Part shown: positions 59-53,027 of the stretch, one piece after another
How positions within the stretch are numbered: the stretch's first letter is position 1
Layout of the letters: each line of letters opens with the position of its first letter
DNA from: Deltaproteobacteria bacterium
GTDB lineage: Bacteria > Myxococcota_C > UBA6777
DNA: 64,000 bases
Assembly: GCA_002731275.1 (NCBI GenBank)
Contig: PCBK01000110.1
Location: forward strand, 1-64,000
Direction: 5' to 3'
Translations under genes and position numbers: made by a program
Notes under the pieces: model-generated
Told to the model about the DNA's origin: nothing
The model's database searches: none
Seen by the model: the letters and a program-made list of their open reading frames with translations, nothing else

Positions 59-345
59 GAGCCTTCGGCTCTTCCCTCCTCTCAAGCCTTTCAAGAGGAG
101 GGACCATTTACCCGATAGAAGCAAAGACAGTCTGAGAGGGTTCTTGCTTTCTACATCGCGCTCGAAGAGCGCAACACAGACGATGCGTAAGCATCGTGGG
201 GTCTGGGGGCATCGACCCCAGGCGGGTGTGGGTGGCAAACCCACTACGCCAAGCGGAGCGCGGCAGCTGTAGGGGCGAGTAGCAACTCGCCCAGAGAGAG
301 TGGCAACTCGTCCAGAGAGAGTATCGCAACTTGCCCTCACCTCCG
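59..345 (-). repeat. GC-rich palindrome cluster, diverged inverted copy of the dispersed repeat family
   Basis: The first 382 bases hold no gene I can support. They hold a run of inverted repeats: GAGCC-ttc-GGCTC (59-71), a 10-bp stem with an 11-base loop (73-103), ACGATGC-gtaa-GCATCGT near 180, GTGGGT/ACCCAC near 230, and GGGCGAGT-agca-ACTCGCCC (273-292). On the minus strand, the order of the last palindrome followed by a GCCGCGCTCCGCTT-like tract matches the units at 39840-40105, 47624-47951 and 49862-50152. I therefore read this as a decayed, inverted member of the same family. The region lies beyond the 3' end of the RNase Z-like gene and could also help terminate it. Confidence 0.5.
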
Positions 346-382
346 GCGACTTGCATGACAGTCAGTGGCAAGCAAAAAGCTA

Positions 383-1357: not shown

Positions 1358-1516
1358 GATCAAACCCTCTGAGTATATGCTTGTGGGCCTTTTTTGCCCA
1401 CAAAGTTCGGTAGCATTGGGGAGTTGTATGGAGGAACCAAACAAACATCAACCAACGATCGCACTATAGCATACCCACACCCTGGACAGATCAGGTCCAC
1501 CCCCCAAAGATATCTT

Positions 1517-2209: not shown

Positions 2210-2228
2210 GATGTTCGACACCTCATTT

Positions 2229-2822: not shown

Positions 2823-2931
2823 CACACTCTCCTTTTTAATCAAAGTTCATTTTATTTTTAGCCACAGCTAAAAACATAAACAAGGAGAAAAAAATGTCAA
2901 GGAAATTCGCAAAGCAGAGAACGAGAAGGTG

Positions 2932-5972: not shown

Positions 5973-6055
5973 GCCGATGCCATCGTCGATTGACTTCGCA
6001 AGAAAATGTCCTATATTTGAATAAGACTGACTTTTTCTCTTTCGGAGGTTATCGA

Positions 6056-8494: not shown

Positions 8495-8507
8495 AACCAG
8501 CTCCCTT

Positions 8508-11912: not shown

Positions 11913-12716
11913 TCAAGTCACTTGGGCAGTGACATTGTCAGCGTATAGATACAACAATCCATCCCCTGATAATCCCAACGTTTCTCCACCTTGCATGATA
12001 AAACCACTTGGGTCCATCTCAGACTGAAGCGAACAAGGCATCCCGAGAATACGTGTGTAACCAAAGCTGTCGTGGTTTTGCAGCTCAGCAAACGTCTTCC
12101 ACTCGACGGGCGTGATCAGGATTTCTTTTTGAGCATATGCTTTGAGCGCGTTTGGATGTGTCCCTACACCGATCTCGTCAATTTGTTCTTGTGTGGAGAA
12201 CAAAACAGCCGTCGCATTGTAAGCATAGTCGATTCCGTACATATCGACATCATTTTCAGCAAACACTGAGACACTTCGGAAATCGGGGTAATGGGCTTGT
12301 AATGCAGGCATCGTCGACAAATCGAGAGAGAACAGGTGGCGTTTTTTGTCAGGCCAACGTTCTTCACCAAAACCAGGCGCTGGACCACCGACATAATTGT
12401 AGACCCCTTCGGTTGGAGCTTCCTTGCTGTAGTCCACGTCGTAAAAAGTTTTGGAGAGCGCATATAGCTCATCAAGTTCCTTCTCCTCATTGAGGAGCAT
12501 ATTGAGATACCCCTCGGACAAGATGGGGACGCTATTTTCGTAGGCTTTCGTCATTTTGGAGCCAGCTTTTGCACCAGCAACCAAAAAATCCGTTTTCTTG
12601 GACACACTGCTTGAAACAGCAATCCCCAATTTTTCAAGCCTTGCTTTGAGTTCTTTACGTGGTGCGCTCTTGAACTTTCCAGTGATCGCAGCCTTTTTTC
12701 CTTTGAGCTTTGTCAT
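11913..12716 (-). CDS. BRCT domain fused to a YwqG/DUF1963-like domain
   Basis: A 267-residue protein. Residues 1-75 form a BRCT domain like that of NAD-dependent DNA ligases: KLKGKKAAITGKF, the Lys-rich segment, then KKTDFLVAGAKAGSK, and a Tyr/Leu end. The rest resembles the YwqG/DUF1963 family, ending in GLSGDGLLYLYADN, the usual mWGDxGxLYF-type closing strand. BRCT domains bind DNA ends or phosphopeptides; the function of YwqG-like domains is largely unknown. The combination suggests recruitment of a YwqG-type module to a BRCT partner, which is inference. The start at 12716 follows AAAGGAAA. It lies 75 bases downstream of the DUF4241-pentapeptide gene on the same strand. Confidence 0.75.
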   Translation of the reverse strand: MTKLKGKKAAITGKFKSAPRKELKARLEKLGIAVSSSVSKKTDFLVAGAKAGSKMTKAYENSVPILSEGYLNMLLNEEKELDELYALSKTFYDVDYSKEAPTEGVYNYVGGPAPGFGEERWPDKKRHLFSLDLSTMPALQAHYPDFRSVSVFAENDVDMYGIDYAYNATAVLFSTQEQIDEIGVGTHPNALKAYAQKEILITPVEWKTFAELQNHDSFGYTRILGMPCSLQSEMDPSGFIMQGGETLGLSGDGLLYLYADNVTAQVT

Positions 12717-12791
12717 TCACGTTTCCTTTGTTTTGTGGTTCACTCCCATCATACACCCATCCGAGTGGTAAAGTGTCACACAACTTTCTTT

Positions 12792-28159: not shown

Positions 28160-28201
28160 GCCCCTCATCCCCTCGTCAACTTGAAAGAATCTGTGGTTCC
28201 A

Positions 28202-28230
28202 TTGACACCACCCACCAAACAGTCTACCAT
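28202..28230 (+). promoter_or_regulatory. Sigma-70-type promoter for the second Cys-rich/NHL lipoprotein
   Basis: TTGACA (28202-28207), a 17-base spacer, then TACCAT (28225-28230), about 40 bases before the start codon. It matches the arrangement upstream of the first paralogue. Confidence 0.45.
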
Positions 28231-28270
28231 CACATTTTATCTTGTAAATTCGGACATCTGAGAGGATCAA

Positions 28271-31200
28271 ATGAGCACGCAAAGCTCCCCACACAGTGTA
28301 TACTATCTCAAACTTCTTCTGGCCTTATGCGGCCTTCTCTTGACAGGGTGTCCAGACGATCCAACGACTTATAAAAATGTCTGCCAATCCTGTGAAGACC
28401 GCTGTCTCAAACTCAGCGAGACCGAGTACAAGTGCGTCACCTGTCTCACGGACCAGCAATGCCAAACCCCCTCCAGTCCCGATAAAAAGTGTAATGCACA
28501 GTTCGAATGTGTCTGTGGCTCCGACAAAGACTGCTCTGACGGACAAAAGTGTGACCAAACCACTGGACAATGCACCGGATGTACCGACGACAAAGACTGC
28601 ACAAACGCCAGCGCCCCCATCTGTTCCTCCGGTGTATGTGTCGCTTGCAAAACCTCAGACAAACGCGATTGTGTCATCACAGATCCCACCTTCTGCGCAA
28701 AAGGTGCACAAACATGCGGCGCTGACGGACAGTGGAAAAATTGTCAGATCGTCAGCAAGAAATCCTGTCAAGCGAGTGAGTTCTGTCGAGAAGGAGAATG
28801 TCTCTGTCGTACCGAGCTTACACGATGCGGACAGCTCTGTCTCAACACGCGAAATGACCCAAATCACTGTGGAAAATGTGACAACAAATGTCCCGACAAG
28901 ACCTTCTGTGCGGCTGGAAGTTGTGTCAGTGAGTGCCCCGCAGAGACGCCAACAGAGTGTGGTCGCTCGTGTGCAAACGTGTCCAGAGACCTCTTTCACT
29001 GTGGTAGCTGCGGCAATACGTGTAAAGATGGCAAGGAATGTCGTGGGGGCACATGTGTCTGTCCTGAAGGACAAATCGAATGTAACAACCAATGTATCGA
29101 CCCTACATATAACACAGCACACTGTGGAAGCTGTGGAAACACTTGCAAATCCGGGCAGGTGTGCGCAGCTGGCGCTTGCCTATCGAGCTGCCCAAAAAAT
29201 ACACCAAAGACCTGCTATGGTGGGTGCTTTGATACACAAAGAAGTCGTCAACATTGCGGACAGTGTGGACAAGCCTGTCGAGTCGACCAAACCTGTCAGG
29301 CCGGACAATGTAAATGCCCCGAAGGTAAACAGGAATGTAACGGCGCGTGCGTCGATGTGACCGTCCATCCAGGACACTGTGGCAAGTGCGCAAATGCATG
29401 TAAAGAGGGTCAACAATGTACCCAAGGAAGCTGCGTGGGCGTTTGTCCTTCGACCACCTCAACGCTCTGTTATGGAGGATGTTTTAGTACAAAGAACAGC
29501 ACACAACACTGCGGGAAGTGCGGAAATACATGCCAAAATCAACAGGTCTGTACAGAGAGCAAGTGCGCTTGTCTGCAAGGGGAATCATTTTGTGGTAACA
29601 AGTGCGTCAACGTCCTCTCAAATCGCCTTCATTGCGGCCAGTGTGACAATCGATGTCCAGCCGGAGAAGTATGCGCAGGTGGCAAATGTACACGCACTTG
29701 TTCGTCCTCAACGCTCCTCTGTGATGGTGGATGTGTCGATGTGAAAAAATCCTTCCAACACTGTGGTGCCTGTGGCAACAGATGCCAGCCAGGAGAGCTT
29801 TGTCAACAAGGTGTATGCTCTTGTAACACAGGGCTGCAACTGTGCGAGGGAGAGTGTGTCGATCTGGCCAATTCCTCCAAACACTGCGGTCGGTGTGGAC
29901 TGACCTGCGCAGAAGTCGAAGCATGCGCCTCGGGCCTATGTGTGTACCAGGGTTGTGCAGACAAAACAGATTGCGACAAACGATGTGTGGATACAAAAAC
30001 CGATGAGAGCAACTGCGGAAAGTGCGGAACAGTATGCAAAAGCGAAGAGTTATGCCTCGAAGGTGTCTGTCGTATCCCCTGTACAAACGGAGACACAAGA
30101 GCTTGCTACACAGGTCCAGCAGCCACCCAGGGTGTCGGAACCTGCCAAGACGGCACACAGAGCTGTGTCAACCAGATCTGGAATACATGTCAAGGCGACA
30201 CGCTGCCACAAACTGAGACGTGCAACAATCTCGACGATGATTGCAACGGACAAATAGACGACAACCTCGCTCGCTCTTGCGGCATCGGCGAATGTAGAGG
30301 CAGTGAGATCTGCAACGCAGGAACGTGGGCCGCTTGCAACGGCAAAAAGCCCGCCAATGAAGTCTGTGATAACAAAGATAACAACTGCGATGGAAAGGTC
30401 GACGAAGGGCTCTCATGTACCCTCTCTTGGTCCGTCAGTACCTTTGCAGGGACGACAGATGGATACGCAGATGGGGACAAACTCCAAGCACAATTTAGTA
30501 GTCCAATCCGCACACTCATCGACACTCAAGGCAACACCTTCATCTCCGACGTTGGAAATCATCGCATACGTATGATTGACGCCAAAGGAGTTGTCACGAC
30601 GTTCGCAGGAACCGGGACAAAAGGTACGGTAAATGGGGGCAAAGCGACCGCACAATTTAGCTCACCAGCCGGGATCGCCTGGGGTCCACAAAGCCAAGGG
30701 ATCTTCATGTTTGTCGCGGACTTTGACGGTGATAAGATCCGCAAAATTGCATACACCAACGGCGCGATCAATGTCACAACACTCGCCGGGAGTGGTGCAG
30801 GTGGATTCAAAGATGGCGCTGCAGGTGTCGCCGAATTTAACGAACCAGCAGGCATCGCCTTTGATGGTATGTCCAATCTTTACGTCGCGGATTCCAAAAA
30901 TCACGCCATTCGCAAAGTGGATCTACAAGGAAACGTCACCACAGTCGTAGGAACAGGTAGCGCAGGGTTCGTCAACGGTAACGGCACAAGCGCGCAGCTC
31001 AACACGCCCTCTGATGTGGCCTTGGATCCGAACGGAAACCTCCTCATCGTCGACGCTCTCAACCATTGTATTCGCATACTTGACGTCAACACAGGCAACG
31101 TCTCGACCTTTGCGGGAACAGGCGCACAAGGCTCATTTGATGGACCCAAAGCCCAGGCTCAATTTTCCGGCCCCTTCGCGATAGCGTTTGATGGACAAGG

Positions 31201-31429
31201 CAACCTGTTTGTTGTCGAAGCTGTTGGACATAGAGTCCGCATGATCGATCCAAAAGGAAACGTGACGACGATCGCAGGGAGTACACAGGGTTTCTCGGAT
31301 GGTAATAACCCTCTCTTCGCGCAATTTGACACCCCCTCAGGTATTCATGTAGATAGCAACGGAGACCTTTATATCGCCGATCAAGCCAACCACAAGATCC
31401 GTCTCGTCAAAAGGACCGTCGCCCCATGA
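28271..31429 (+). CDS. Lipoprotein paralogue: ten Cys-rich modules, two MopE motifs, six NHL-type repeats
   Basis: A 1052-residue lipoprotein (lipobox LTGC, Cys27, then PDD). The layout is that of the preceding gene: N-terminal Cys block, ten HCGxC-type modules (the last reads NCGKC), then Asp-rich metal-binding motifs, here two (NLDDDCNGQIDD and NKDNNCDGKVDE), then only six NHL-type units, enough for one six-bladed propeller. The first about 250 codons are close to identical at DNA level to the upstream gene, while the propeller part has diverged, so duplication with later gene conversion of the 5' part is likely. The stop overlaps the start of the pseudouridine synthase gene (ATGA). It is probably exposed at the cell surface. 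Confidence 0.85.
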   Translation: MSTQSSPHSVYYLKLLLALCGLLLTGCPDDPTTYKNVCQSCEDRCLKLSETEYKCVTCLTDQQCQTPSSPDKKCNAQFECVCGSDKDCSDGQKCDQTTGQCTGCTDDKDCTNASAPICSSGVCVACKTSDKRDCVITDPTFCAKGAQTCGADGQWKNCQIVSKKSCQASEFCREGECLCRTELTRCGQLCLNTRNDPNHCGKCDNKCPDKTFCAAGSCVSECPAETPTECGRSCANVSRDLFHCGSCGNTCKDGKECRGGTCVCPEGQIECNNQCIDPTYNTAHCGSCGNTCKSGQVCAAGACLSSCPKNTPKTCYGGCFDTQRSRQHCGQCGQACRVDQTCQAGQCKCPEGKQECNGACVDVTVHPGHCGKCANACKEGQQCTQGSCVGVCPSTTSTLCYGGCFSTKNSTQHCGKCGNTCQNQQVCTESKCACLQGESFCGNKCVNVLSNRLHCGQCDNRCPAGEVCAGGKCTRTCSSSTLLCDGGCVDVKKSFQHCGACGNRCQPGELCQQGVCSCNTGLQLCEGECVDLANSSKHCGRCGLTCAEVEACASGLCVYQGCADKTDCDKRCVDTKTDESNCGKCGTVCKSEELCLEGVCRIPCTNGDTRACYTGPAATQGVGTCQDGTQSCVNQIWNTCQGDTLPQTETCNNLDDDCNGQIDDNLARSCGIGECRGSEICNAGTWAACNGKKPANEVCDNKDNNCDGKVDEGLSCTLSWSVSTFAGTTDGYADGDKLQAQFSSPIRTLIDTQGNTFISDVGNHRIRMIDAKGVVTTFAGTGTKGTVNGGKATAQFSSPAGIAWGPQSQGIFMFVADFDGDKIRKIAYTNGAINVTTLAGSGAGGFKDGAAGVAEFNEPAGIAFDGMSNLYVADSKNHAIRKVDLQGNVTTVVGTGSAGFVNGNGTSAQLNTPSDVALDPNGNLLIVDALNHCIRILDVNTGNVSTFAGTGAQGSFDGPKAQAQFSGPFAIAFDGQGNLFVVEAVGHRVRMIDPKGNVTTIAGSTQGFSDGNNPLFAQFDTPSGIHVDSNGDLYIADQANHKIRLVKRTVAP

Positions 31430-39839: not shown

Positions 39840-40105
39840 TGATTTTTTTGGGCGATCCCTTATATACGGGCGAGTTTCCACTCGCCCTTACTGCCGCGCT
39901 TCGCTTGCCCTTGCTTTGGGCAAGTTGCCACTTGCCCCTTCTTCTCTTCTGCCGCGCTTCGCTTGCCCCTGCTTTGGGCAAGTTGCCACTTGCCCCTTCT
40001 TCTCTTCTGCCGCGCTTCGCTTGCCCCTTCTAACGGGGATGCACGGGCATCCCCTGGCGCGCTTCGCTTGCCTTCCCCTCCTGATGACGCCTTCGGCGTG
40101 TGGAT
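39840..40105 (+). repeat. Mosaic palindromic repeat array, locus 2
   Basis: The 538-base gap between the HEAT gene and the efflux operon is filled largely by palindromes: GGGCGAGT-ttcc-ACTCGCCC (39868-39887), GGGCAAGT-tgcc-ACTTGCCC (39918-39937 and 39976-39995), GGGGATGC-acgg-GCATCCCC (40035-40054), and ACGCC-ttc-GGCGT (40087-40099). Two 58-base units (starting near 39891 and 39949) are nearly identical. The roughly 75-base right end is shared with the arrays at 47624 and 49862. I see no gene in the gap. Confidence 0.85.
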
Positions 40106-40263
40106 GATGAAATGCAATCCCCAAGGTCTTTGGCCTTTCAAAAAGCAATCCGATGAGGGAAAAATAAGACAGTAAAAACAAGCTCCTTCAACATTGCGCT
40201 TGACCTTGTACCTCACTACAGGGTTACGCTCTGTGGTGGATATGAACAGGATTGGATCAACAC

Positions 40264-40590
40264 ATGCGCTTCATCAAACAAATCATCATTCGACTTATCG
40301 CGATCGGCTTTTTGATACAAAGCCTCGGCGCATTGTGTGATGATTGTATGTTCACACCTGTCACCGCATCTTGCCAACACGTCTCCCCAGATCTAGGGCA
40401 AGAACACTCACACTCTCCAGACGCACCCGAGCCATGCACAAGCAGCCTTTGCAGTCTTTGCGGCTGCGCCATCCCCTGCTCCTCTTGTGCGTCCTCACAT
40501 CCAATACAACCCACACCACCTCCCCCCTTTGTCAACTCGCTATACAAAGATGCCCCCACAAACTCACTCTTCCGACCTCCCCAAGTATAA
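40264..40590 (+). CDS. Small exported Cys/His-rich protein leading the metal-efflux operon
   Basis: A 108-residue protein with a hydrophobic N-terminus (FIKQIIIRLIAIGFLIQSLGALC), either a signal peptide or a single anchor. The mature part contains CDDC, HSHS and CSLCGCAIPCSSC, giving many thiol and imidazole ligands suited to soft metals. It precedes the CusC-like gene by about 140 bases in the same direction, as small Cys/His-rich exported proteins often do in heavy-metal loci. The ribosome-binding site is poor; TTG at 40252 is an alternative start. Metal binding is inferred from composition and context. Confidence 0.6.
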   Translation: MRFIKQIIIRLIAIGFLIQSLGALCDDCMFTPVTASCQHVSPDLGQEHSHSPDAPEPCTSSLCSLCGCAIPCSSCASSHPIQPTPPPPFVNSLYKDAPTNSLFRPPQV

Positions 40591-40733
40591 GAGCATAGGT
40601 TCTCCCACAAAACATCCACAAAACCCTCTCAGCCCGAGCAAGAACTCGTAGTTCTACCACTGCTTGACGTTCACCCCACAGCAGTCGTGGGGATAGAGAG
40701 GGTCCACATGCTCTTTACAAAAAGGAGTTGCAC

Positions 40734-42032
40734 ATGTGTATGCACACTCATCGGGTTGTATGGATCGCCCTATCTATCCTATCGACCACATCGTTCGCAC
40801 AGGCGAATGAACATCATCGCTCAAGCACACTCTCGTATCGACAAGATATCATACGATTCGCCCTAAAGAACAACCGCGCACTGCAGGTCTTTGAGACCCA
40901 AATCCAACAAGCAGATGCACGACGAAAAGGCACCAAGATCTTTCCGACAAACCCCGTCCTCTCAGGTGGTGGAGGAACACAAACACCAGCGTCAGGAACG
41001 ACATCTCTCCTTCCACGTGTCGAAGCCAATCTCTCGTGGGCCTTTCCCATCGGTGGACGATGGAACAAGGCACAAACCCTCGCGACACAGCGACTCACAT
41101 GGATGAAGCAGCAACGCACGTGGAGAAGGCTTCAGCTCTCACTCAATGTCCATCTCATGCTCAATCGTATCGCGATCAACTGGCACATACGCCAAAAAAG
41201 ACAGGCGATGGTGTCATTCTTCCAAACCTTAGAGCGCTACACAAAGCAAAGACTCCAACATGGCGACGCCATCCAATTGGATCTACAGCTCGCACAAAAC
41301 GCACGACTCCAAGCAGAACAAGCAGCTTTGCTCGCAACACTTCGCCACAAACAACTGCGCCAAACACTCAAACAACTGATCGGATGGGACGCCACAAAGC
41401 CGCTCACCTGGAACATTCGGCAGATCCCCACGCCGCAAAAGCTGCCACCTCTCAAAACATTATTACAACGCATCAACAAACGACACCCTCTCCTCATGCT
41501 CGCCCACAGCACAATCGTACAGGCGAAGGCATCACTCGGACTCTCAAAATCCCGCGCGATCCCCGATCTAACGGTCTCACTCGGATACGCACTAGAAGAC
41601 AACAACCACGTCTTTCGAGGAGGACTCTCCATCCCATTGCCGCTCTTTTGGCGAAACCAAGGGAACATCGGACAGGCACATGCGCGCATCAGGCAAGCCA
41701 CACTCTCCCTAAAAAGACAACAATTCATTCTCCAACAACAGCTCAAACAGAGCTACATGCGCTACTCCATGAACAAACGAATGAACCGCCTCTTTCAAAA
41801 ACGCCTGCAGACCACCAAGAGCAACGAGAAGCTACTCAAGGGCGGAATCAAACAGGGCGGAATCTCCATCATGAAGCTGCTCACGACACAAAAAAGCATC
41901 CTGCAAAACCACTTGCAGTCACTTAAGAATATGCAAAAAACACACGACAACTACATCAAACTTCATCAGGCAACAGGCACACTGCCAAGGTACAAGTCCA
42001 CCCAAAAAAACAAGCCTGAAGGGGAGCAATAA
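40734..42032 (+). CDS. Outer-membrane efflux protein of the TolC/CusC-CzcC family
   Basis: A 432-residue exported protein with a signal peptide ending FAQA. It has the two long amphipathic helical hairpins of the TolC fold, with the typical duplicated pattern: an N-terminal half starting LSYRQDIIRFALKNNRALQ and a C-terminal half starting LKTLLQRINKRHPLL. It would form the outer-membrane channel for the adaptor and pump encoded next. The start at 40734 is set by AAGGAG six bases upstream; TTG at 40728 and ATG at 40740 are possible. It is unusually rich in Arg, Lys and Gln. The adaptor gene begins two bases after its stop. Confidence 0.85.
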   Translation: MCMHTHRVVWIALSILSTTSFAQANEHHRSSTLSYRQDIIRFALKNNRALQVFETQIQQADARRKGTKIFPTNPVLSGGGGTQTPASGTTSLLPRVEANLSWAFPIGGRWNKAQTLATQRLTWMKQQRTWRRLQLSLNVHLMLNRIAINWHIRQKRQAMVSFFQTLERYTKQRLQHGDAIQLDLQLAQNARLQAEQAALLATLRHKQLRQTLKQLIGWDATKPLTWNIRQIPTPQKLPPLKTLLQRINKRHPLLMLAHSTIVQAKASLGLSKSRAIPDLTVSLGYALEDNNHVFRGGLSIPLPLFWRNQGNIGQAHARIRQATLSLKRQQFILQQQLKQSYMRYSMNKRMNRLFQKRLQTTKSNEKLLKGGIKQGGISIMKLLTTQKSILQNHLQSLKNMQKTHDNYIKLHQATGTLPRYKSTQKNKPEGEQ

Positions 42033-42034
42033 AG

Positions 42035-43288
42035 ATGCAACCTCAAAACATAACGCTTACATCGACAAAATACACACTCCGGCACCTGCTTCTGTTTCTC
42101 TTCGCATGTGTCGGTATCTTCGCGCTCGCTGGATGTGAAGAACGTAATAATGACCACGACCACAAAACACACAAAGAAGACAAACACGAAGAGAAAGGTC
42201 ACGACGAACACAAAGGCGAGATCACTCTCCACAAGGAGGCGTTGAAACAGATCGCCCTGACCACCTATACCTTGCGCGCCAAAAGCAACCCAACCCAAGA
42301 GGTCGCGGCAGTAGGAAGGATTAGCCTTCCACCTTCCACACTCAGTCAGGTCGGCTCTCGTGTCGAAGGTCGCCTGCTCAAGTGGTACGTCAAGCTCGGA
42401 CAAAAGGTGAAGAAGGGACAGTCCCTCGCCCTCCTCGACAGCCCAACAGCGGGCCGCGCAAGAGCCACTTACTTGCGCGCCAAAGCGCTGTACAAGTTGA
42501 CGGATACGGAGTACCAACGCACGACGCGCCTAAAGAAAATCGGCCTCGCCTCATCACGACAACGACTCGCCGCAAGAATGGCACGGGAAAAAGCACGCAT
42601 CAACGTCCGCTCAGCACAAACACAACTCCATATCCTCGGCATCGCGACACCGACCAACACGACACAAAAGATCTCTGGACGCTTTATCCTCCGCGCACCC
42701 AAAGCCGGTGAAATCTCCAGACTCAACAAAACACTCGGCGCATGGGTTCATCCACAACATACACTCCTCCACATCGAAGATCGACGAAAGGTGTGGGCCT
42801 TACTCGAAGTCTATGCTCGCGATGTCCCTTACATTCACGTCGGACAATCAGTGCATATCTATGGACCCGGCATCCAATCTCACCGCAAAGGTCGTGTCGA
42901 GTATCTCTCCAGTCGATTCGACAGAGGTGCACGTACACTTGAAGCGCGTGTCTCTCTTCCCAACCCAAAAGGGACACTACGCCCCAACCAATTTGTCTAC
43001 GCACTTATCGATGGAAATGAAAAGAAAACGACCTCAAACACCAAACAACTTCTGCTCCCAGAAGACGCCATCCAGCGACTTGGACAAAGACATATTGCCT
43101 TTATCGTAGGGGATGAACTAGGCCACTTCACAGCCAAAACAGTCGTGACTGTCGAAGCACCAGGAGGTCAGGTCCGCGTCCTGTATGGACTCAAAGAGGG
43201 CGATAAAGTCGTCGTCAAAGGTTCATTCATACTCAAATCAGAGCTGCTACGTTCCTCCCTGGAAGGTGGTCATGGACACGCCCACTGA
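42035..43288 (+). CDS. RND efflux periplasmic adaptor, CusB/CzcB-like, with His-rich N-terminus
   Basis: A 417-residue membrane-fusion protein and probable lipoprotein (lipobox LAGC, Cys34). Residues about 37-62 are packed with His, Asp, Glu and Lys (DHDHKTHKEDKHEEK), a likely metal-binding tail; the C-terminus ends GGHGHAH. The barrel-sandwich region (SRVEGRLLKWYVKLGQKVKKGQ), a helical hairpin and the beta-barrel region follow the usual order. It links the outer-membrane channel to the pump and may deliver metal. GGGGAG overlaps the end of the upstream gene; spacing and strand show one operon. The metal identity (Cu/Ag versus Co/Zn/Cd) cannot be read with confidence. Confidence 0.87.
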   Translation: MQPQNITLTSTKYTLRHLLLFLFACVGIFALAGCEERNNDHDHKTHKEDKHEEKGHDEHKGEITLHKEALKQIALTTYTLRAKSNPTQEVAAVGRISLPPSTLSQVGSRVEGRLLKWYVKLGQKVKKGQSLALLDSPTAGRARATYLRAKALYKLTDTEYQRTTRLKKIGLASSRQRLAARMAREKARINVRSAQTQLHILGIATPTNTTQKISGRFILRAPKAGEISRLNKTLGAWVHPQHTLLHIEDRRKVWALLEVYARDVPYIHVGQSVHIYGPGIQSHRKGRVEYLSSRFDRGARTLEARVSLPNPKGTLRPNQFVYALIDGNEKKTTSNTKQLLLPEDAIQRLGQRHIAFIVGDELGHFTAKTVVTVEAPGGQVRVLYGLKEGDKVVVKGSFILKSELLRSSLEGGHGHAH

Positions 43289-43300
43289 CAGGAGAGAATC

Positions 43301-46300
43301 ATGCTGAATACATTGATCGATAGTGCTCTTGAACACCGTCTCCTCGTCCTGATCTTTACGGGACTGATCATCGTCGGTGGCTGGCAATCATTTCAACAAC
43401 TTCCTGTCGACGCAGTCCCCGACCTGACGAACGCTCAAGTGCAGGTCTTAACAAAACTTCCAGGACTCGCGCCCACAGAGGTCGAAAAATTCGTCACATT
43501 CCCCATTGAGCAAGCGATGTCAGGGATCCCAAAGCTCCAACAGTTGCGCTCAATGAGTCAGTTTGGTCTGTCCTTTGTCACCATCGTCTTCGAAGAAGGA
43601 ACGGATATCGACTGGGCACGAATCCAAGTCTCACAACGTCTCGCGGTCGCAAGAGAGGATATCCCCAAAGGCTTGGGGACACCACTGATGGGACCGATGA
43701 CGACAGGGCTTGGAGAGATCTTTCAGTTCGAGTTAAAGAGCAAAACCCACTCCCCCATGCAGCTACGAAGCATCCTCGATTGGTACGTCGCCCCACCCTT
43801 GCGGCTCGTCAAAGGCGTCGTCGAGGTCAATTCATTTGGAGGCAAACTGAAGACCTTTGAGATCCAGCTCGATGCGCGAAAACTCCAACAGTACAAGCTC
43901 TCCGTTGAAGAGGTCTACAACGCCCTCAGTCGAGGCCACCTCAACGTTGGAGGCGGGTATATTACCAAAGCAGGTGAGCAGTATATCGTCCGTGGCGAAG
44001 GACTACTCAAGACACGCGAAGATATCGAAGCCATCCCGATCAAGACCGCTGCCCATGGCACCCCTGTCTACATCAGGAACATCGCGAATGTGCGCTTTGC
44101 CCCGATGATTCGGCAGGGAGCCGTCACACGAGATGGCCGTGGTGAGGCGGTCACAGCGACCATCATGATGCTACAAGGTGCCAACGCCGCCGATGTCATC
44201 CAGCGCGTTAAGAAGACCCTCAAGACCCTCAAAACAGGACTCCCGAAAGGTGTCACTGTCGACGTCTTTTACGACCGCTCTGCGTTGGTCAAGAGAACAT
44301 TGCGCACGGTCGGCTATAACCTCCTTGAAGGCGGCTTGCTCGTCATCATCATTCTCTTTTTGTTACTCGGTGATCTGCGAGGGGGTGTTCTCGTCGCGAT
44401 GACGATCCCATTGTCGATGCTCTTCGCGTTTATTTGTATGAGATGGACAGGGATGAGCGGGAATATGATGAGCCTCGGTGCGATCGACTTTGGCATCATC
44501 GTGGATAGCTCCGTTGTGGTGATTGAACACATTGTCTTGGTCTTTGGTACAGCCCACGTCATCGAAGGCACACGGACAGATCGTGTCAAAGCTGCTGCCC
44601 ACGAAGTCGCACGCCCTATCATCTTCTCAGTCATGATTATCATGATCGTGTACCTCCCCATCCTCACCTTACAGGGGACTGAAGGAAAACTCTTTCGCCC
44701 GATGGCCTGGGTCTTACTCTTCGCCCTTGCGGGTGCCTTACTCTTCAGCCTGACGCTGATGCCTGTGCTCGCGACCTACGTGTTTCCAGATACAATCGAA
44801 AGTCAAGAGACGTTCTTGATGCGCTTTTTCCGCTGGCTCTACACGCCTCTTTTGTCGTTGGTCCTGCGCTTTCGCATCGTCACAATGGCAGGTGCTGTGG
44901 TTGTCTTTTTCGTGAGCGTTTGGGTTGTGTCTGGGATGGGTGCCAACTTTATGCCCAAACTCGATGAAGGGATGATCGCGATGCAGGCGAACCGATTGCC
45001 TTCTGTCTCTCTCGAAGAATCGATCCGCCACACGACTCGTATTGAGCGCGTTTTAAAGCAGCTCCCGGAGATCACCTCTGTGATCTCCAAAACCGGTCGG
45101 GCAGAGGTCGCAACGGACCCAATGGGGGTGTTCTTCTCGGATATCTATATTACCTTGAAGCCAAAGGCACAATGGCGATCCGGGTTGACAAACGAGACAC
45201 TCGTCAAAGAGATGCAAGCGCTCCTCAAACGACAAAGTCCAGCCAACAATTACTCATTCAGCCAACCCATCGCCTTGCGCACAGCCGAATTGCTCTCTGG
45301 TGTACGTGCAGACGTCGCCCTCAAAATCTTTGGGGATGACCTCAAACAACTGCCAAAGAGCGCAAACGCGATCGCCTCCATTCTACGTAAGATCCCAGGC
45401 GCAGGTGATGTCCTCGTCGAACCGAGTATCGGGCTTCCATACCTTCGCATTGTGCTCAACAGAAAAGAGATCTCCAGACATGGGCTCTCGGACAAACAGG
45501 TTCTCGATACCATCGAGGCCATTGGAGGTAAGACCGTTGGGATGATCTTCGAAAAAGAGAAGCGTTTTGCGTTGCGTGTACGATTTCAAAAGCGGGATAG
45601 AGAGCGTTTGGCCGCGATTCGCCGCCTTCCAATCAAGACGGCGAGTGGCCAATCTTTGCCACTTGGTCAGCTCGCCCACATCTGGTTTGAAGACGGCCCT
45701 CTCCAGATCCAGCGAGAACAAGGACGTCGGCGCGTGACCATCCAGCTCAATGTGCGCGGTCGGGATCTGGCGTCTTTCATCGCAGAAGCCAAAACGCGCG
45801 TCAACAAAGCCATTCAAGAGAAAACCATCTCCTTCCCAGAGGGTGGATTTCTTACTTGGGGAGGACAATTTGAACAGCTTGAGAGTGCCTCTAAGAGGCT
45901 CTTGTTTGTCGTCCCTCTCGCACTTTTGTTGATCTTTGTCTTGTTACAAATGACCTTCAACTCCGTGCGTATGAGTATGTTGATCTACCTAAATGTACCA
46001 TTCGCAGTAAGCGGTGGGATCTTCGCGTTGTGGATACGAGGGATGGCCCTCAGTATCAGCGCAGCCGTCGGATTTATTGCCCTATCAGGAATCGCCGTCA
46101 TGAACGGTGTCTTGCTGATCAGCGCGATCCGCCAAAGACAATCCACAGGAGAGCGACAAACAGAGGCGATCAAAGAAGGCGCGATGTTGCGGTTGCGTCC
46201 TGTGTTGATGACAGCTCTCACGGACGCCATTGGCTTTGTCCCGATGGCGCTCTCAGCCTCAGCCGGCGCAGAAGTCCAGCGCCCACTCGCGACCGTTGTC

Positions 46301-46408
46301 ATTGGAGGGATCTTCACATCAACCATCCTCACATTGCTCGTGCTGCCAGCCGTTTACAGCAAGTGGGGTCTACAAACGGACACTGACACATCGAGGAGCA
46401 CACAATGA
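43301..46408 (+). CDS. Heavy-metal efflux RND pump, CusA/CzcA-like
   Basis: A 1035-residue inner-membrane pump with 12 helices and two large periplasmic loops. Heavy-metal RND hallmarks are the N-terminal LPVDAVPDLTNAQVQV and ARIQVSQRL blocks and the helix-4 proton-relay motif DFGIIVD (Asp396, Asp402), followed by a conserved Glu. It exports divalent or monovalent metal ions against the proton gradient through the CusB-like adaptor and TolC-like channel. AGGAGAGAATC places the start. Within its 3' end lies GAGGAG, which serves a 33-codon frame overlapping its stop. It is about the usual length for the family. Confidence 0.92.
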   Translation: MLNTLIDSALEHRLLVLIFTGLIIVGGWQSFQQLPVDAVPDLTNAQVQVLTKLPGLAPTEVEKFVTFPIEQAMSGIPKLQQLRSMSQFGLSFVTIVFEEGTDIDWARIQVSQRLAVAREDIPKGLGTPLMGPMTTGLGEIFQFELKSKTHSPMQLRSILDWYVAPPLRLVKGVVEVNSFGGKLKTFEIQLDARKLQQYKLSVEEVYNALSRGHLNVGGGYITKAGEQYIVRGEGLLKTREDIEAIPIKTAAHGTPVYIRNIANVRFAPMIRQGAVTRDGRGEAVTATIMMLQGANAADVIQRVKKTLKTLKTGLPKGVTVDVFYDRSALVKRTLRTVGYNLLEGGLLVIIILFLLLGDLRGGVLVAMTIPLSMLFAFICMRWTGMSGNMMSLGAIDFGIIVDSSVVVIEHIVLVFGTAHVIEGTRTDRVKAAAHEVARPIIFSVMIIMIVYLPILTLQGTEGKLFRPMAWVLLFALAGALLFSLTLMPVLATYVFPDTIESQETFLMRFFRWLYTPLLSLVLRFRIVTMAGAVVVFFVSVWVVSGMGANFMPKLDEGMIAMQANRLPSVSLEESIRHTTRIERVLKQLPEITSVISKTGRAEVATDPMGVFFSDIYITLKPKAQWRSGLTNETLVKEMQALLKRQSPANNYSFSQPIALRTAELLSGVRADVALKIFGDDLKQLPKSANAIASILRKIPGAGDVLVEPSIGLPYLRIVLNRKEISRHGLSDKQVLDTIEAIGGKTVGMIFEKEKRFALRVRFQKRDRERLAAIRRLPIKTASGQSLPLGQLAHIWFEDGPLQIQREQGRRRVTIQLNVRGRDLASFIAEAKTRVNKAIQEKTISFPEGGFLTWGGQFEQLESASKRLLFVVPLALLLIFVLLQMTFNSVRMSMLIYLNVPFAVSGGIFALWIRGMALSISAAVGFIALSGIAVMNGVLLISAIRQRQSTGERQTEAIKEGAMLRLRPVLMTALTDAIGFVPMALSASAGAEVQRPLATVVIGGIFTSTILTLLVLPAVYSKWGLQTDTDTSRSTQ

Positions 46409-46506
46409 GAAGTCTATTGATGTACATTTTGCCTGTGTATTATGGGGTGTATTTGTTCTTTGTCTTCTTCTTACCCACCTATTTTTCAGGAGCAGCCTTA
46501 CTTTGA
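46405..46506 (+). CDS. 33-residue hydrophobic peptide coupled to the RND pump gene
   Basis: A short open frame whose ATG overlaps the pump's TGA (ATGA) and has a near-ideal GAGGAG six bases upstream. The product, beginning MRSLLMYILPVYYGVYLFF, is one strongly hydrophobic helix with an aromatic end. Two readings are possible: a genuine small subunit of the efflux pump, or the remnant N-terminus of an ICMT-type methyltransferase, whose first helix can look similar. Its last nine bases overlap the convergent reductase gene at 46498. Expression would depend on translational coupling. Confidence 0.5.
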   Translation: MRSLLMYILPVYYGVYLFFVFFLPTYFSGAALL

Positions 46507-47532
46507 AATCCCCAGCGCGAGGATACTGTCAGCGGTCGCTTTGATCGCCTCTTCAGGGAGGCGTGGTGTCCAGCCCAAGACCTCTTTGGCTTTTGTATGA
46601 TCGTATTCGCGCTTGACGCCCAGCTCCGTCAACACCATCCGGGTCTCTTGGTCGAAGAGCGCCATCAATCGAACAAAGATATTAGGCACCTCAAATGTCG
46701 GGAACTTCTTCTTGTAGGTGGGATAGGCACCACGTAGATACTTCGCGACCTCGATCGCCCAACGGAACCCACTATCCGCAAGAAAGCGCTGACCAGGCGC
46801 ATCAGGTGACGTCATCGCCCGGATATGCAGGTCTGCAACATCTCGCACGTCGACGATCCCAAAGCCGAGCTTTGGTGCTGCCGGAAAATCACCATCAAAC
46901 ATCTTCTTCACCAACAACGAAGATGTCCCGTAATCCTCCTCCAATAGCGGCCCAAGGACAAGTGTGGGCAAAATGGTCACAAATTCGAGCTTTGATTGAC
47001 TCACCTCTAACGCATCCCACGCGGCTTTCTCTGCGAGCATTTTGCTACGAATATAGGCCGTTGTGTCCTTCAAGTCTTTGGGGTTGGTCCAATCTTTCTC
47101 CGTAAAGAGTCGACTCTTTTCCTCGTGACCATATGCGACAGCCGCAGCTGACGAGGTCATCACCATGCGTTTGACGTTGTGTCGTTCAGCAGCCTTGAGA
47201 ACGTTGAGCGCACCATCTCGTGCAGGGACGATCAACTCCTGGTCATCTTTTGGGTTAGCCCGTGGCAATGGAGAGGCGATGTGAAGGACATAATCAACCC
47301 CCTCCATCGCCGCATCCCAGGATTCAGGTTGAGTGAGCTCGGCCTGTGCAAAAGAGAGTAACTCCGTCCCAACGGATTTTCCGATGACTTCCTTGATCGA
47401 TTCACTGCGCGAAAGCTTTCGCATCGTCCCACGAACCTGATACCCTTGCCGCAATAACTCGACTGCAATGTGTGAACCAATAAAACCTGTTACACCTGTG
47501 ACCAAAACCAATGTATCCGCGGGATTCGACAT
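46498..47532 (-). CDS. NAD-dependent epimerase / dihydroflavonol-4-reductase-like extended SDR
   Basis: A 344-residue Rossmann-fold oxidoreductase. VTGVTGFIGSHI near residue 11 is the extended-SDR TGxxGxxG motif, HIASPLP the NAD-binding block, and YIRSK near 165 the YxxxK catalytic pair, with Ser in MTSSAAAVAYG upstream. The layout is that of dihydroflavonol reductases and related 3-beta-hydroxysteroid or aldehyde reductases, which reduce ketones or aldehydes with NAD(P)H. The start at 47532 has GAGGAG seven bases upstream; TTG at 47535 is less likely. It stands alone, converging on the efflux operon. Confidence 0.85.
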   Translation of the reverse strand: MSNPADTLVLVTGVTGFIGSHIAVELLRQGYQVRGTMRKLSRSESIKEVIGKSVGTELLSFAQAELTQPESWDAAMEGVDYVLHIASPLPRANPKDDQELIVPARDGALNVLKAAERHNVKRMVMTSSAAAVAYGHEEKSRLFTEKDWTNPKDLKDTTAYIRSKMLAEKAAWDALEVSQSKLEFVTILPTLVLGPLLEEDYGTSSLLVKKMFDGDFPAAPKLGFGIVDVRDVADLHIRAMTSPDAPGQRFLADSGFRWAIEVAKYLRGAYPTYKKKFPTFEVPNIFVRLMALFDQETRMVLTELGVKREYDHTKAKEVLGWTPRLPEEAIKATADSILALGISK

Positions 47533-47623
47533 CAACTCACTCCTCTCTGTTCACAAACACTGCCACAAAAATCATGCAGGAACCTAACCACCCCTATACG
47601 CCTTTGTCAACTCAACCCACCAC

Positions 47624-47951
47624 TTTTTTGGGCAAGTTGCCACTTGCCCCTTCTTCTGCCGCGCTTTTTTTGGGCAAGTTACCACTTGCCCCTTCTAACG
47701 GGGATGCGCGGGCATCCCCTGGCTCGCTTTTTTGGGCAAGTTTCCACTTGCCCCTTCTAACGGGGATGCGCAGACACCCCCTGGCGCGCTTTTTGGGCAA
47801 GTTGCCACTTGCCCCTTCTTCTGGATCGTTTTTTTGGGCAAGTTTCCACTTGCCCCTTCTAACGGGGATGCACGGGCATCCCCTGGCGCGCTCCGCTTGC
47901 CTTCCCCTCCTGTTGACGCCTTCGGCGTATACTGCCGCACTTCGTTTGCCC
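47624..47951 (+). repeat. Mosaic palindromic repeat array, locus 3
   Basis: Fills most of the gap between the reductase and PHA synthase genes. GGGCAAGT-type palindromes occur at 47630-47649, 47672-47691, 47734-47753, 47795-47814 and 47836-47855, with loop variants tgcc, tacc and ttcc. GGGGATGC-type palindromes sit at 47700-47719 and 47864-47883, plus a broken one near 47762. The array ends with ACGCC-ttc-GGCGT (47916-47928). Units are separated by CCTTCTTCTGCCGCGCTTT-like or CCTTCTAAC linkers, so two unit types alternate. I see no gene here; the open frame through it is a consequence of the repeats. Confidence 0.88.
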
Positions 47952-48068
47952 TTTTGGTACAGGTTGTTAGATGAATTCCCAATGTTCTCCGAAAATGCAG
48001 CAACACCTCGACAAAATACCACCCATTGTATATACCATCTCAACATATACCCACAAAAGGAGCATGGG

Positions 48069-49856
48069 ATGAGTACAACACAAGAAGAGAAAGACAATCC
48101 GCTTGTACAGCGCACCCTCGGTAGCCTCTTCCAGAAGGTCAAGTCCTCTGGTGCCAAATGGCTCCCAACAGCCCTCTCGACGATTCCAAAAGATCCAGAG
48201 GCGATGATGCAATTTTGGGCGCAAGTCTGGACAAGACCTGCGCTGCTCACACAATTCTGGCTGGAGTTTGCCTCAGCCTACCAATACGAACAACTCCAAT
48301 GGTGGGAGCAAGTCCTCAAACTCAACGATAAAGACGATGAACACGCTCACAAAAAACAAGATCGACGCTTTCGACACAAAGCCTGGAAAAAGAGTCCCAC
48401 CTTCGACTTTATCAAACGCTCCTACCTCGTAACAGCCGAACTATACATTAAGATTGCGGAGACAACACCTCTTCAAGGAGAAGCCAAAGAGAAGGTCCAG
48501 TTCTACACCCAGTCTTTTGTCGACGCGATGTCTCCCTCTAACTTCATCCTGACCAACCCAGAAGTCATCCAAGAAGCCGTCAACACCAAAGGCAAGAGTC
48601 TGCTTCGGGGATTTCAGAATTTGTTGAGCGATGTCAAACAACGACGCATCACGCTCACCAACGAAGAGGCTTTTCACGTCGGCGACAATCTCGCGACAAC
48701 ACCCGGTGCTGTGGTCTTTCAAAACCGCCTCTTTCAGCTCATCCAGTACAATCCCACAACCGAGCAGGTCCACGAACGCCCACTGTTGATCATCCCACCT
48801 TGTATCAACAAATACTACGTGCTCGATCTCAAGGAGAGCAATTCATACGTCAAGTGGGCGACGGAGCAAGGCCACACGGTCTTCATTATGTCCTGGGTGA
48901 ATGCAACAAAAGACCTCAAGGACGCAGGTTGGGATGAATTTGTGACAGAAGGTGTGTGTAAGGCGATCGAGGTGACAAAGGATATCTGTTCACAAGAGAC
49001 GATCAACGCGGTCTCGTGGTGTGTAGGCGGGACACTGACGGCGACAGCGCTTGCCTGGATGGCCAAAAGAGGAGAGAAGCCACTGGAGTCGATCACCTTC
49101 TTGACGACGTTGTTGGACTTTTCGGATCCAGGACAGGTCGATGTCTTTTTGACCCCCGAAGAAGTCAGCAAACGCGCCAAAAAAGTCGCAAAAGACGGTG
49201 TGTTCTCAGGCAAGCAGATGGCGATGGGCTTTAACATGCTCAGAGCAAACGACCTGATTTGGTCCTACGTCGTGAACAATTATCTCTTGGGTAAGACCCC
49301 TCCTCCTTTTGACCTCTTGTACTGGAACTCCGATCCCACGAATCTTCCGGCCAAGATGTACAATTCGTATATCCAAACATTGTATTTGAAGAACAAGCTG
49401 ATCAAGGGAGCCTTCAAGGTGAAGGGCGAGGTCATCAAGTTAGCGGATATAGAGACACCATGTTACTTTTTCTCGGCGATCAATGACCACATCGCCCCCT
49501 GGAAAACGACCTATACAGGTGCGCTTGAGTTATCTGGCCCAAAGACGTTCGTGCTGGGGCAGAGCGGACACATTGCAGGCGTGGTCAACCATCCATCCAA
49601 AAACAAACGAGGGTATTGGACACAAGAGAAGTTGGCGAAGACACCTGATATATGGTTTGAGCAGACGACAGCCCATGAGGGAAGCTGGTGGCCTCACTGG
49701 AACGATTGGGTGCGTTCATTTACAGGAGAAAGTATCCCAGCGCGTAATGTCCTGGGCACAGAAAAGTATCCCCCACTCGAAGACGCACCAGGAACCTACG
49801 TCCGTGTCAATTGCGATGGTGTTGTCGAAACATCAGAAGCTACAAAAGAACGCTGA
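48069..49856 (+). CDS. phaC: Class I polyhydroxyalkanoate synthase
   Basis: A 595-residue alpha/beta-hydrolase-type polymerase that builds polyhydroxyalkanoate from (R)-3-hydroxyacyl-CoA on storage granules. The nucleophile box is S316-W-C318-V-G320, followed by GTL; the catalytic Asp lies in INDHIAPW and the His in SGHIAGVVNHP. Other family blocks are LIIPPCINKYYVLDL, FIMSWVN and YWNSDPTNLPA. Length and N-terminal domain fit class I. The first position of the GxCxG box is Ser rather than Gly. The start at 48069 has AAGGAG six bases upstream. There is no phaA, phaB or phasin gene beside it, and it sits between two same-direction palindromic repeat arrays. Confidence 0.92.
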   Translation: MSTTQEEKDNPLVQRTLGSLFQKVKSSGAKWLPTALSTIPKDPEAMMQFWAQVWTRPALLTQFWLEFASAYQYEQLQWWEQVLKLNDKDDEHAHKKQDRRFRHKAWKKSPTFDFIKRSYLVTAELYIKIAETTPLQGEAKEKVQFYTQSFVDAMSPSNFILTNPEVIQEAVNTKGKSLLRGFQNLLSDVKQRRITLTNEEAFHVGDNLATTPGAVVFQNRLFQLIQYNPTTEQVHERPLLIIPPCINKYYVLDLKESNSYVKWATEQGHTVFIMSWVNATKDLKDAGWDEFVTEGVCKAIEVTKDICSQETINAVSWCVGGTLTATALAWMAKRGEKPLESITFLTTLLDFSDPGQVDVFLTPEEVSKRAKKVAKDGVFSGKQMAMGFNMLRANDLIWSYVVNNYLLGKTPPPFDLLYWNSDPTNLPAKMYNSYIQTLYLKNKLIKGAFKVKGEVIKLADIETPCYFFSAINDHIAPWKTTYTGALELSGPKTFVLGQSGHIAGVVNHPSKNKRGYWTQEKLAKTPDIWFEQTTAHEGSWWPHWNDWVRSFTGESIPARNVLGTEKYPPLEDAPGTYVRVNCDGVVETSEATKER

Positions 49857-49861
49857 CTCCC

Positions 49862-50152
49862 TTTTTTGGGATGTCTTTTTTGGGCCACTTGCCACTTGCC
49901 CTTATATACAGGCGAGTTGCCACTCGCCCCTTCTTCTCTTCTGCCACGCTTTGCTTGCCCCTGCTTTGGGCAAGCTTCCACTTGCCCCTTCTTCTGCCGC
50001 GCTTTTTTGGGCAAGTTGCCACTTGCCCCTTCTTCTGCCGCGCTTTTTTGGGCAAGTTGCCACTTGCCCCTTCTTCTAACGGGGATGCACGGGCATCCCC
50101 TGGCGCGCTTCGCTTGCCTTCCCTTCCTGTTGACGCCTTCGGCGTGGTTGAC
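49862..50152 (+). repeat. Mosaic palindromic repeat array, locus 4
   Basis: Lies between phaC and the Cys-rich lipoprotein gene. It contains GGCGAGT-tgcc-ACTCGCC (49911-49928), GGGCAAGC-ttcc-ACTTGCCC with one mismatch (49968-49987), two perfect GGGCAAGT-type palindromes (50009-50028, 50050-50069), GGGGATGC-acgg-GCATCCCC (50081-50100) and ACGCC-ttc-GGCGT (50133-50145). The left end shares CCCTTATATAC followed by the GGCGAGT palindrome with locus 2. No gene is seen in the rest of the gap up to 50343. Confidence 0.88.
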
Positions 50153-52019: not shown

Positions 52020-53027
52020 TTAGTCTTTGAGTTGTTCGATGTCTTGGAGAGAGATGTTGAGGATGTCAGAGATTTGTTGGGCTGGTACGTTGGCCTCAAG
52101 CATCAGCTTTGCGCTTTTCAACAGACCAATTTGCTCGCCTGTTTGGATGCCTTTCTCCAGACCTGCCTGTTCGCCCTCGACTCGGCCTTGTTCGAGACCT
52201 TTCTCAAGACCAGCTTGTTCACCTTTTTCAAAACCGGCTTGCTCACCCTCGGCTCGACCTTGTTCAAGTCCTTCCTGTAGGCCTTCTTTGAAGGAGGCAG
52301 AAAAACCAGTGAGCCAACGGCGGATGGCGTTGATACGATCTTCGACTTCCCAGCGAAATTCCTCATTGGCACCGAGTCTTTCGAGTTCCTGGTATGCGTC
52401 TTGAAATTCGGGATGTTGTTCTTCCCATTTTTTGATGATGTCTTTGTCCAATTTCGTACCCTCCTTGAACAGGCACAACCACTTGTCGAGCAAAGTATGT
52501 GCATTTTCTGGTGTCGTGTCAAAGCCCGCCAAACTGATGAAGTGGATCGCCATCCCGTCTGTCAATGGAAAATGCTGTTTTTGTTCGAGCAACAAAAAGC
52601 AGTGGTGATATCCTGGCTTGTCCTTGAACATCGCGAAGTTCGTGATCACGATCGAGTACACAGGTTGTAACTTGTCGTACTTTTCGCCACTTTCGAGCTG
52701 TGAAGCCGACAAGCGCGACCAATAGTACAAGACTCGCTCCGCGAAGAACTTCTCGTTGGCGACCTGGACTTCGACGTGATAGAGCTTTCCCTTTTTGTCG
52801 CGGACTTTGAGATCCATCACTGGATGTTTGTCGGTCCTCCATTCGATCTGCGATTCTGGATTCAGAATGTCGATCTCGTCGATTGGTGCAGCCCCCTCTG
52901 GGATGAGTACCGCATCCAATAAACTTCGGAGCAATCGTTTGTTGCGCTCATCCCCGAAGATGCGCTTGAACACGATATCAATGCATGGTGTCAGTATAAT
53001 GGACTTGTTTTGCTGTTCTTCTATCAT
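52020..53027 (-). CDS. Rpn/PD-(D/E)XK family nuclease (recombination-promoting type)
   Basis: A 335-residue protein of the Rpn/transposase_31 type. It opens with the family block ILTPCIDIVFKRIFGDERN, and the PD-(D/E)XK catalytic core is read as Asp72 in VMDLKVRD with E86-x-Q88 in YHVEVQV. Family members are Mg-dependent DNA endonucleases that promote RecA-independent recombination; some behave as horizontally spread toxins or defence genes. Residues about 250-305 are a string of EGEQAG/EKGLEQG-type units, coded by near-repeats at 52130-52280, as is common and variable in this family. A short helical tail follows. ATG 53027 is the family start; the preceding bases show only a weak GGGGGA site. 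Confidence 0.85.
   Translation of the reverse strand: MIEEQQNKSIILTPCIDIVFKRIFGDERNKRLLRSLLDAVLIPEGAAPIDEIDILNPESQIEWRTDKHPVMDLKVRDKKGKLYHVEVQVANEKFFAERVLYYWSRLSASQLESGEKYDKLQPVYSIVITNFAMFKDKPGYHHCFLLLEQKQHFPLTDGMAIHFISLAGFDTTPENAHTLLDKWLCLFKEGTKLDKDIIKKWEEQHPEFQDAYQELERLGANEEFRWEVEDRINAIRRWLTGFSASFKEGLQEGLEQGRAEGEQAGFEKGEQAGLEKGLEQGRVEGEQAGLEKGIQTGEQIGLLKSAKLMLEANVPAQQISDILNISLQDIEQLKD

Follow-up and report, generated by a model that had tools for sequence, protein, structure and literature searches.

The closest described relatives of the repeats reported here are the repetitive extragenic palindromes (REPs) of the GTAG superfamily, which with their REP-associated tyrosine transposases (RAYT, or TnpA-REP) are known as REPtrons. 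These are high-copy extragenic palindromes with a tetranucleotide head on one strand; they prefer the 3' ends of genes, form clusters beside a RAYT-like gene and preserve pairing among variants. The bacterial interspersed mosaic elements (BIMEs) of E. coli and Stenotrophomonas are mosaics of palindromes and linkers, polymorphic in unit number, in which REPs alternate in orientation, and the CGTC-tagged REPs are REP-like palindromes without the canonical GTAG head. BOX elements of Streptococcus pneumoniae have a modular A-Bn-C layout with a variable middle unit, and are not known to include a hairpin chain or a RAYT. Here we describe three hairpin arrays between positions 39840 and 50152 of a 64,000-nucleotide stretch of DNA (the window), which is contig C99 of a 10.75-Mb, 200-contig metagenome-assembled genome (MAG; G000). 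The host is an uncultured Myxococcota-like bacterium from a deep, barely sampled lineage, its phylum being represented by five genomes in the collection searched, all of one family. The arrays seem to form a new branch of the REP repeats and are probably a REP/BIME-like family, for which contig C107 of this genome encodes a candidate RAYT. Systems of the REP/RAYT type would thereby reach into a deep Myxococcota-like lineage, where the head is non-canonical and the composite layout is ordered.

The arrays are assembled from a few parts. F is a 20-bp palindrome, GGGC(A/G)AGT-NNNN-ACT(T/C)GCCC, with arms such as GGGCAAGT/ACTTGCCC; h is F without its closing arm; and L is a linker hairpin, CGCGCTTCGCTTG. 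The C tail consists of GGGGATGC..GCATCCCC, then an L-type linker, then ACGCC-TTC-GGCGT. The T tail consists of GTGGG..CCCAC, ACCCGC, a GGGG..CCCC hairpin, ACCCC, an ACGATGC..GCATCGT hairpin and a terminal hairpin. Models R1 and R2 represent the T and the C tail, respectively. The two palindrome types of the original prediction, GGGCAAGT/ACTTGCCC and GGGGATGC/GCATCCCC, and its closing ACGCC-TTC-GGCGT were read directly in all three arrays at the places given below, where tails carry their model scores.

39868-39887, plus strand: array 1, F palindrome, GGGCGAGT/ACTCGCCC variant, both arms changed
39918-39937, plus strand: array 1, F palindrome GGGCAAGT/ACTTGCCC
39976-39995, plus strand: array 1, F palindrome
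40010-40105, plus strand: array 1, C tail (R2 114.6 bits, the best R2 match in the genome), with GGGGATGC-ACGG-GCATCCCC at 40035-40054, the CGCGCTTCGCTTG linker, and ACGCC-TTC-GGCGT at 40087-40099
47630-47855, plus strand: array 2, five F palindromes (47630, 47672, 47734, 47795, 47836)
47700-47719 and 47762-47781, plus strand: array 2, interspersed C hairpins, intact and decayed, respectively
47839-47934, plus strand: array 2, C tail (R2 109.8 bits), hairpin at 47864-47883, terminal hairpin at 47916-47928
49882-50069, plus strand: array 3, F palindromes, decayed at 49882-49901, a 7-bp GGCGAGT/ACTCGCC at 49911-49928, and another at 49968-49987
50009-50028 and 50050-50069, plus strand: array 3, intact F palindromes
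50053-50151, plus strand: array 3, C tail (R2 101.7 bits), hairpin at 50081-50100, terminal hairpin at 50133-50145
159-244, minus strand: T tail of a reversed array, three modelled hairpins and a terminal hairpin (R1 102.8 bits)
245-292, minus strand: reversed array, linker hairpin followed by an F palindrome at 273-292

A change of both arms to GGGCGAGT/ACTCGCCC had been proposed for positions 39868 and 49911. It is perfect at 39868-39887; at 49911-49928 only 7 bp pair, the outer G-C having been lost. Array 2 is a tandem of two F-C blocks. What had been called a diverged inverted relative at 59-345 is a reversed T-tailed array (159-292, minus strand) with a different hairpin at its far end; GTAG at 269-272 lies directly 5' of its 273-292 palindrome on the plus strand, the REP strand there.

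Genome-wide searches bore out the idea of a dispersed family, copies not being confined to the window. The F pattern GGGCRAGTNNCNACTYGCCC, with up to one mismatch, had 166 forward matches in the genome compared with 0 for a reversed-pattern control, so the matches are not due to chance; exact F matches numbered 73 per strand, and the pattern matched once in four relatives. The genome contains at least 131 T tails and at least 91 C tails (R1 and R2, E ≤ 0.1), counts that may be lower bounds because the best 150 candidates per genome were scored. All told, roughly two hundred of these hairpin clusters are scattered over the genome. The arrays are nevertheless sparse: in an 864-kb sample there were 93 hairpins of 8 bp or more versus 43 in one Markov control, a modest excess, and the four clusters of at least three such hairpins (0 in the control) included the window's own three arrays.

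Array statistics were drawn from the loci around the matches, with 121 arrays in all and 119 after removal of two on redundant contigs. F or h was present in 64 of the 119, L in 94, T in 81 and C in 29, with T and C together in 3. The order of parts is nearly fixed: where an array had both F/h and a tail, all F/h lay 5' of the first tail in 47/53 cases (array 2 of the window is one of the six exceptions), and L preceded the tail in 77/83. Like BIMEs, the arrays are palindrome/linker mosaics, with what may be unit-number polymorphism; whereas BIME REPs alternate in orientation, the units here run head-to-tail in one module order, with mixed orientation in 1/121 arrays. The modular layout also recalls BOX elements, which are not known to have the hairpin chain or a RAYT. 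Inverted T pairs do exist: among 19 adjacent pairs within 700 bp, 13 face each other and none face apart, with homologous cores between them. Stretches of about 0.5-0.6 kb, in which two T tails face each other across a homologous core a few hundred bases long, were seen at L053 (7844-8359 and 10028-10523), L117, L048, L120, L133 and L134, and it is possible that these are composite elements with T as their inverted ends.

Genes were called with a simple script based on codon scores and without a trained gene finder; none of the arrays lay within a called gene (0/121). F has the size, copy number and location of REPs (20-40 nt, more than about 100 copies, extragenic). In the 93 cases with an upstream gene no more than 600 bp away, that gene was co-oriented with the array 64 times (two-sided p = 0.0004), then at a median distance of 64.5 bp; the orientation of the downstream gene was unbiased (42 versus 31, p = 0.24). 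More arrays lay between convergent than between divergent genes (31 versus 12, p = 0.005). At unidirectional sites, sense placement was seen 31 times and antisense 18 times (p = 0.09). Di Nocera et al. (PMC3733652) describe such a placement for REPs. Array 1 lies between divergent genes, a HEAT-repeat open reading frame (ORF) and an efflux operon; array 2 is likewise flanked by a divergent pair, with an NAD-epimerase ORF on one side and a PhaC-domain ORF on the other. A strict 3'-untranslated region (UTR) element was ruled out by these two window arrays together with the weak sense bias.

The original prediction had called for a search for a RAYT-type (Y1 HuH) transposase gene. A PF01797 profile search of the MAG returned four genes: an IS200/IS605 TnpA (NCBIfam, 149.9 bits), its near copy, a similar gene on the other strand, and a fourth scoring 83.1 bits over the C-terminal part. 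By eye, the sequence shared by the two IS605 copies ends without any F, L, T or C motif. The view, based on PF01797, that the genome has no RAYT was overturned by the NCBIfam RAYT model, which found a divergent candidate.

C107:24894-25412 (L041:10895-11413): candidate RAYT, 173 aa (NCBIfam REP_Tyr_transpos)

The predicted protein matched REP_Tyr_transpos with 55.4 bits (E = 6e-15) and had no IS200 match; when aligned with the RAYT-like proteins of G002, G004 and Leptolinea it appears to keep the HuH (MPDHFHALV) and Tyr (RNYYDSIV) motifs. Upstream of the gene is a cluster of ten F-like palindromes in both orientations, the last of which stands 24 bp before the ATG, and we estimate the chance of a random gene start falling within 100 bp of F at about 0.003 (at most 166 F places in 10.75 Mb). 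RAYT-like genes of the related genomes G002 and G004 and of a Leptolinea plasmid adjoin palindromes of their own, several of them GTAG-headed, or inverted. In the G002 RAYT-like ORF (L294), a long insertion of GQAQI-type repeats separates the two catalytic motifs. A PDB sequence search with the C107 protein and a RAYT search of viral contigs gave no useful match.

High-copy extragenic palindromes, mosaic arrays and a RAYT-like Y1 HuH gene beside an F cluster agree with the REP/BIME-like reading of the original prediction. In our proposed mechanism F would be the REP, with, on the strand opposite to the window arrays, a GTAA (rarely GTAG) head, an 8-bp stem and a 4-nt loop. The transposase, for which the 173-aa C107 ORF is the candidate, would recognise the F hairpin in single-stranded DNA and carry F, along with the linker and tail hairpins next to it, to the ends of genes. 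Units may then multiply or vanish locally by slippage or unequal exchange at hairpins, differences in unit number having been observed. The stems could stay perfect because the DNA hairpin is the form recognised or copied (through recognition of single-stranded DNA and/or correction by template switching), with no selection on RNA.

We call F REP-like, not a canonical GTAG REP, because the REP-strand heads (n = 126) were GTAA in 73 cases and GTAG in 3, with GAAG in 11, GCAG in 10 and GCAA in 8. F shares the REPtron traits listed at the outset, but here the head is mostly GTAA, the candidate RAYT falls under the curated cut-off, palindromes lie only 5' of its gene, and they are joined to a long, fixed multi-hairpin tail. 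Like the CGTC-tagged REPs, F generally does without the canonical GTAG head; unlike those, F has a RAYT-like gene beside it, and CGTC is not among its 12 commonest heads. Literature searches gave no paper on the array words, and for REP/RAYT with Myxococcota, Myxococcales or Deltaproteobacteria there was nothing among the matches listed.

Several observations weigh against a REP/BIME-like family with this RAYT. The score of the C107 protein (55.4 bits) is below the curated cut-off of 80, its gene was missed by PF01797, and F copies lie only 5' of it, with none in the 3' flank examined. AlphaFold2, run on the single C107 sequence, gave no usable fold (pLDDT 40.9). The heads depart from the GT(A/G)G of REPs (GTAG 3/126), and according to PMC8266576 the E. 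coli TnpA-REP tolerates no change of GTAG; other RAYTs are laxer. Tails occur without F-type units in 54/119 arrays, with T alone in 23, so F is not required for their spread. Insertion events were not observed, and the contigs that pair up might represent strain variants or alternative assemblies.

Array length was compared in three near-identical contig pairs, all within the MAG. Aligned over 10,775 bases, contigs C102 and C195 show 2 mismatches and a single indel, of 60 bp, inside an array; C135 and C198, aligned over 4,593 bases, have 0 mismatches and likewise one indel, of 52 bp, inside an array. By eye, these correspond to three 20-bp units and two 26-bp units. Over 7.5 kb that include an array, C50 and C197 do not differ at all. 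BIME arrays are known to vary in length (PMC2817692). Mobilisation in trans, as suggested originally, is plausible; mobility is what we infer.

The data set allows one to ask whether compensatory stem changes prove RNA function. We used four alignments: A1, a sequence-only MAFFT alignment of 25/29 T copies, in which the pattern used to choose rows fixes part of the conserved sequence and which omits the strongly deviating L036:1682, L049:5384, L053:8258 and L094:10483; A2, all 11 C copies from a strict regular expression; and A3 (131 T) and A4 (66 C), which were fitted to the model structure and so favour pairing. Counts of changed cells refer to sequences, not events. In A1, 98.7% of cells were paired and 7/19 pairs had changed on both sides, with a covariation of 0.257 versus 0.129 when shuffled. 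In A3, fitted as just described, 97.6% were paired, with both sides changed in 14/19 pairs (226 cells); in A4, likewise fitted, 97.3% were paired, with both sides changed in 19/19 pairs (251 cells). One-sided changes were rare in both T and C. As the original prediction held, arm changes are paired across the aligned copies (A1, A3 and A4). Preserved pairing among REP variants was noted earlier, in PMC2817692.

The imperfect pairs bear on the level at which pairing is kept. Read on the array strand, T had 25 G-U and 24 A-C pairs; C had 10 G-U versus 21 A-C without one fixed G-U pair (61 cells), or 71 versus 21 with it; and F copies with one mismatch had 6 G-U versus 15 A-C. Summed over T, C and F, this is 41 G-U versus 60 A-C, a slight lean to the opposite strand, i.e., the REP strand. 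There is no G-U excess on the array strand, and the pairing therefore fits maintenance at the DNA level, not as RNA; stem pairing looks to be kept in this way. Pairing that is near perfect yet shows no preference for array-strand RNA is relevant to the interpretation of covariation in the search for new RNAs.

The main competing explanations differ in what they take to be selected or moved. The arrays might be RNA hairpins, 3'-UTR elements that end transcription or protect mRNA ends, with the paired changes reflecting selection on RNA. The co-oriented upstream gene (64/93) at a median of 64.5 bp would suit this, as would eight window F hairpins that are followed by CTTCTTCT, pass a lax terminator scan and resemble weak terminators; that scan found 24 sites versus 12.5 ± 3.1 in shuffles. 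However, G-U is not favoured among the broken pairs of T, C or F as read on the array strand, leaving the RNA-hairpin use suggested in the original prediction unsupported; F is mostly followed by TTAC (73/126 genome-wide) and no T run; sense placement at unidirectional sites exceeds antisense by only 31 to 18; and divergent genes flank two of the window's three arrays. Rfam had 0 matches at gathering in the window, and five element-bearing loci gave only three matches at E ≤ 1, all far below gathering scores. We judge RNA hairpins to be an unlikely explanation. A known Rfam RNA was ruled out by those scans of the window and five loci.

Equally unlikely is the idea that the tail (T or C) is the actual mobile element, of the type of a miniature inverted-repeat transposable element (MITE), with F and L merely accumulating 5' of it. 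T does stand alone in 23/119 arrays, 13/19 adjacent T pairs face each other around homologous cores, and the H1-ACCC-H2-ACCCC layout recurs in an element present 120 times in G002 and 134 times in G004 (both strands summed), in many cases with GGACTTACGCAGTT inverted ends. Yet these terminal inverted repeats had 0 matches on either strand of G000, no candidate transposase is linked to T, and C tails obey the same syntax without T-like sequence. The MITE-like label of the original prediction does not appear to suit F, but the related sister-genus element does have terminal inverted repeats. It is more improbable still that the arrays are passive satellites, arising and staying palindromic through replication slippage and template-switch mutation with no transposase. 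This would account for the finding that near-identical contigs have indels in their arrays and nowhere else, and for two-arm changes far outnumbering one-sided ones (226 cells in T, 251 in C), since template switching can alter both arms of a hairpin at once (PMC8794818). Slippage, however, fails to explain dispersal to more than 100 sites in one fixed order, and the RAYT-like gene beside an F cluster is left unexplained. A REP/BIME-like family remains the reading that we favour.

Relatives of the T tail were found in other genomes. With up to 2 mismatches and both strands summed, GGGGTTTNACCCCACACCCCACAAGGG matched 120 times in G002 and 134 times in G004, and these elements are often framed by GGACTTACGCAGTT inverted ends. 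The GGACTTACGCAGTT end itself matched 128 times in G002 and 132 times in G004, and 0 times in the other three genomes of the phylum, including G000 (both strands). R1 matches the G002 and G004 elements weakly (E about 1e-3); over 290 genomes it matched G000, G002 and G004, with one weak match in G052. A general pattern, GGGGYTYNRCCCCNNACCCC, searched over 386 genomes, gave 115 matches in G002 and 124 in G004 (both strands summed), single matches in 3 others, and none in G000. The G002/G004 element, g3 (Myxococcota MAG.451/KLAP109), resembles T in having H1 GTGGGG..CCCCAC, an ACCCC spacer, H2 and ACCCC, and gives weak R1 matches; unlike the arrays it has no F, L or C, has inverted ends, and finishes with a stem followed by a T run.

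A 29-base core occurs exactly, twice, in the Clostridia MAG RGIG3115 from goat rectum (L230, L252), with close versions in two gut-type plasmid records of uncultured bacteria and five human gut phage scaffolds. When two of the phage scaffolds were compared, the third hairpin differed by paired changes. Plasmid HG796363 (L291) and gut phage scaffolds L292 and L293, like the Clostridia loci, have a chain of two to three hairpins with ACCCC spacers that equals or closely resembles that of the sister-genus element. The core may be shared across phyla by descent, transfer or convergence. It is conceivable, although we consider it fairly unlikely, that the tail represents a cross-phylum class of mobile hairpin chains (hairpin-ACCCN-hairpin-ACCC(C)) in which entire palindromic stems are exchanged at the level of DNA; the class would have joined a REP/RAYT system here, while in the sister genus it would have become part of elements with inverted ends. 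Scans of viral and genome collections (possibly without the source genome) with F and T core patterns, and blastn of the arrays themselves against plasmids and phages, gave no useful match.

Some of the elements have repeats or introns as neighbours. Hairpin elements of the F/L/T/C family lie no more than a few hundred bases from the ends of three long CRISPR-like arrays, two in L151 (C47:18043-29724), at 52-3210 and about 4770-9166, and one in L161 (C100:20179-33243), from about 9247; one of the three matches Rfam CRISPR-DR7. In L046 (C83), a group II intron at about 12200-14094 (RF02001, RF01998 and RF00029, the sole RF00029 match in the genome) apparently splits a C tail, with partial C matches on either side.

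Within the window, a PD-(D/E)XK recombination-promoting nuclease/putative transposase (PF12784) is encoded at 52020-53027, about 2 kb from array 3. Two large ORFs lie side by side at 23267-31429; they are rich in direct repeats (period about 160 nt, Cys-rich units) and 93% alike over their first 300 nt. The repeated words GAAAGGCTTGAGAGGAGGGA and GGGTCGGGCCTTGTGTCCGA, found at about 70-110 of the window and at other loci, each occur 9 times in a 406-kb repeat-enriched sample and probably mark further dispersed hairpin families.

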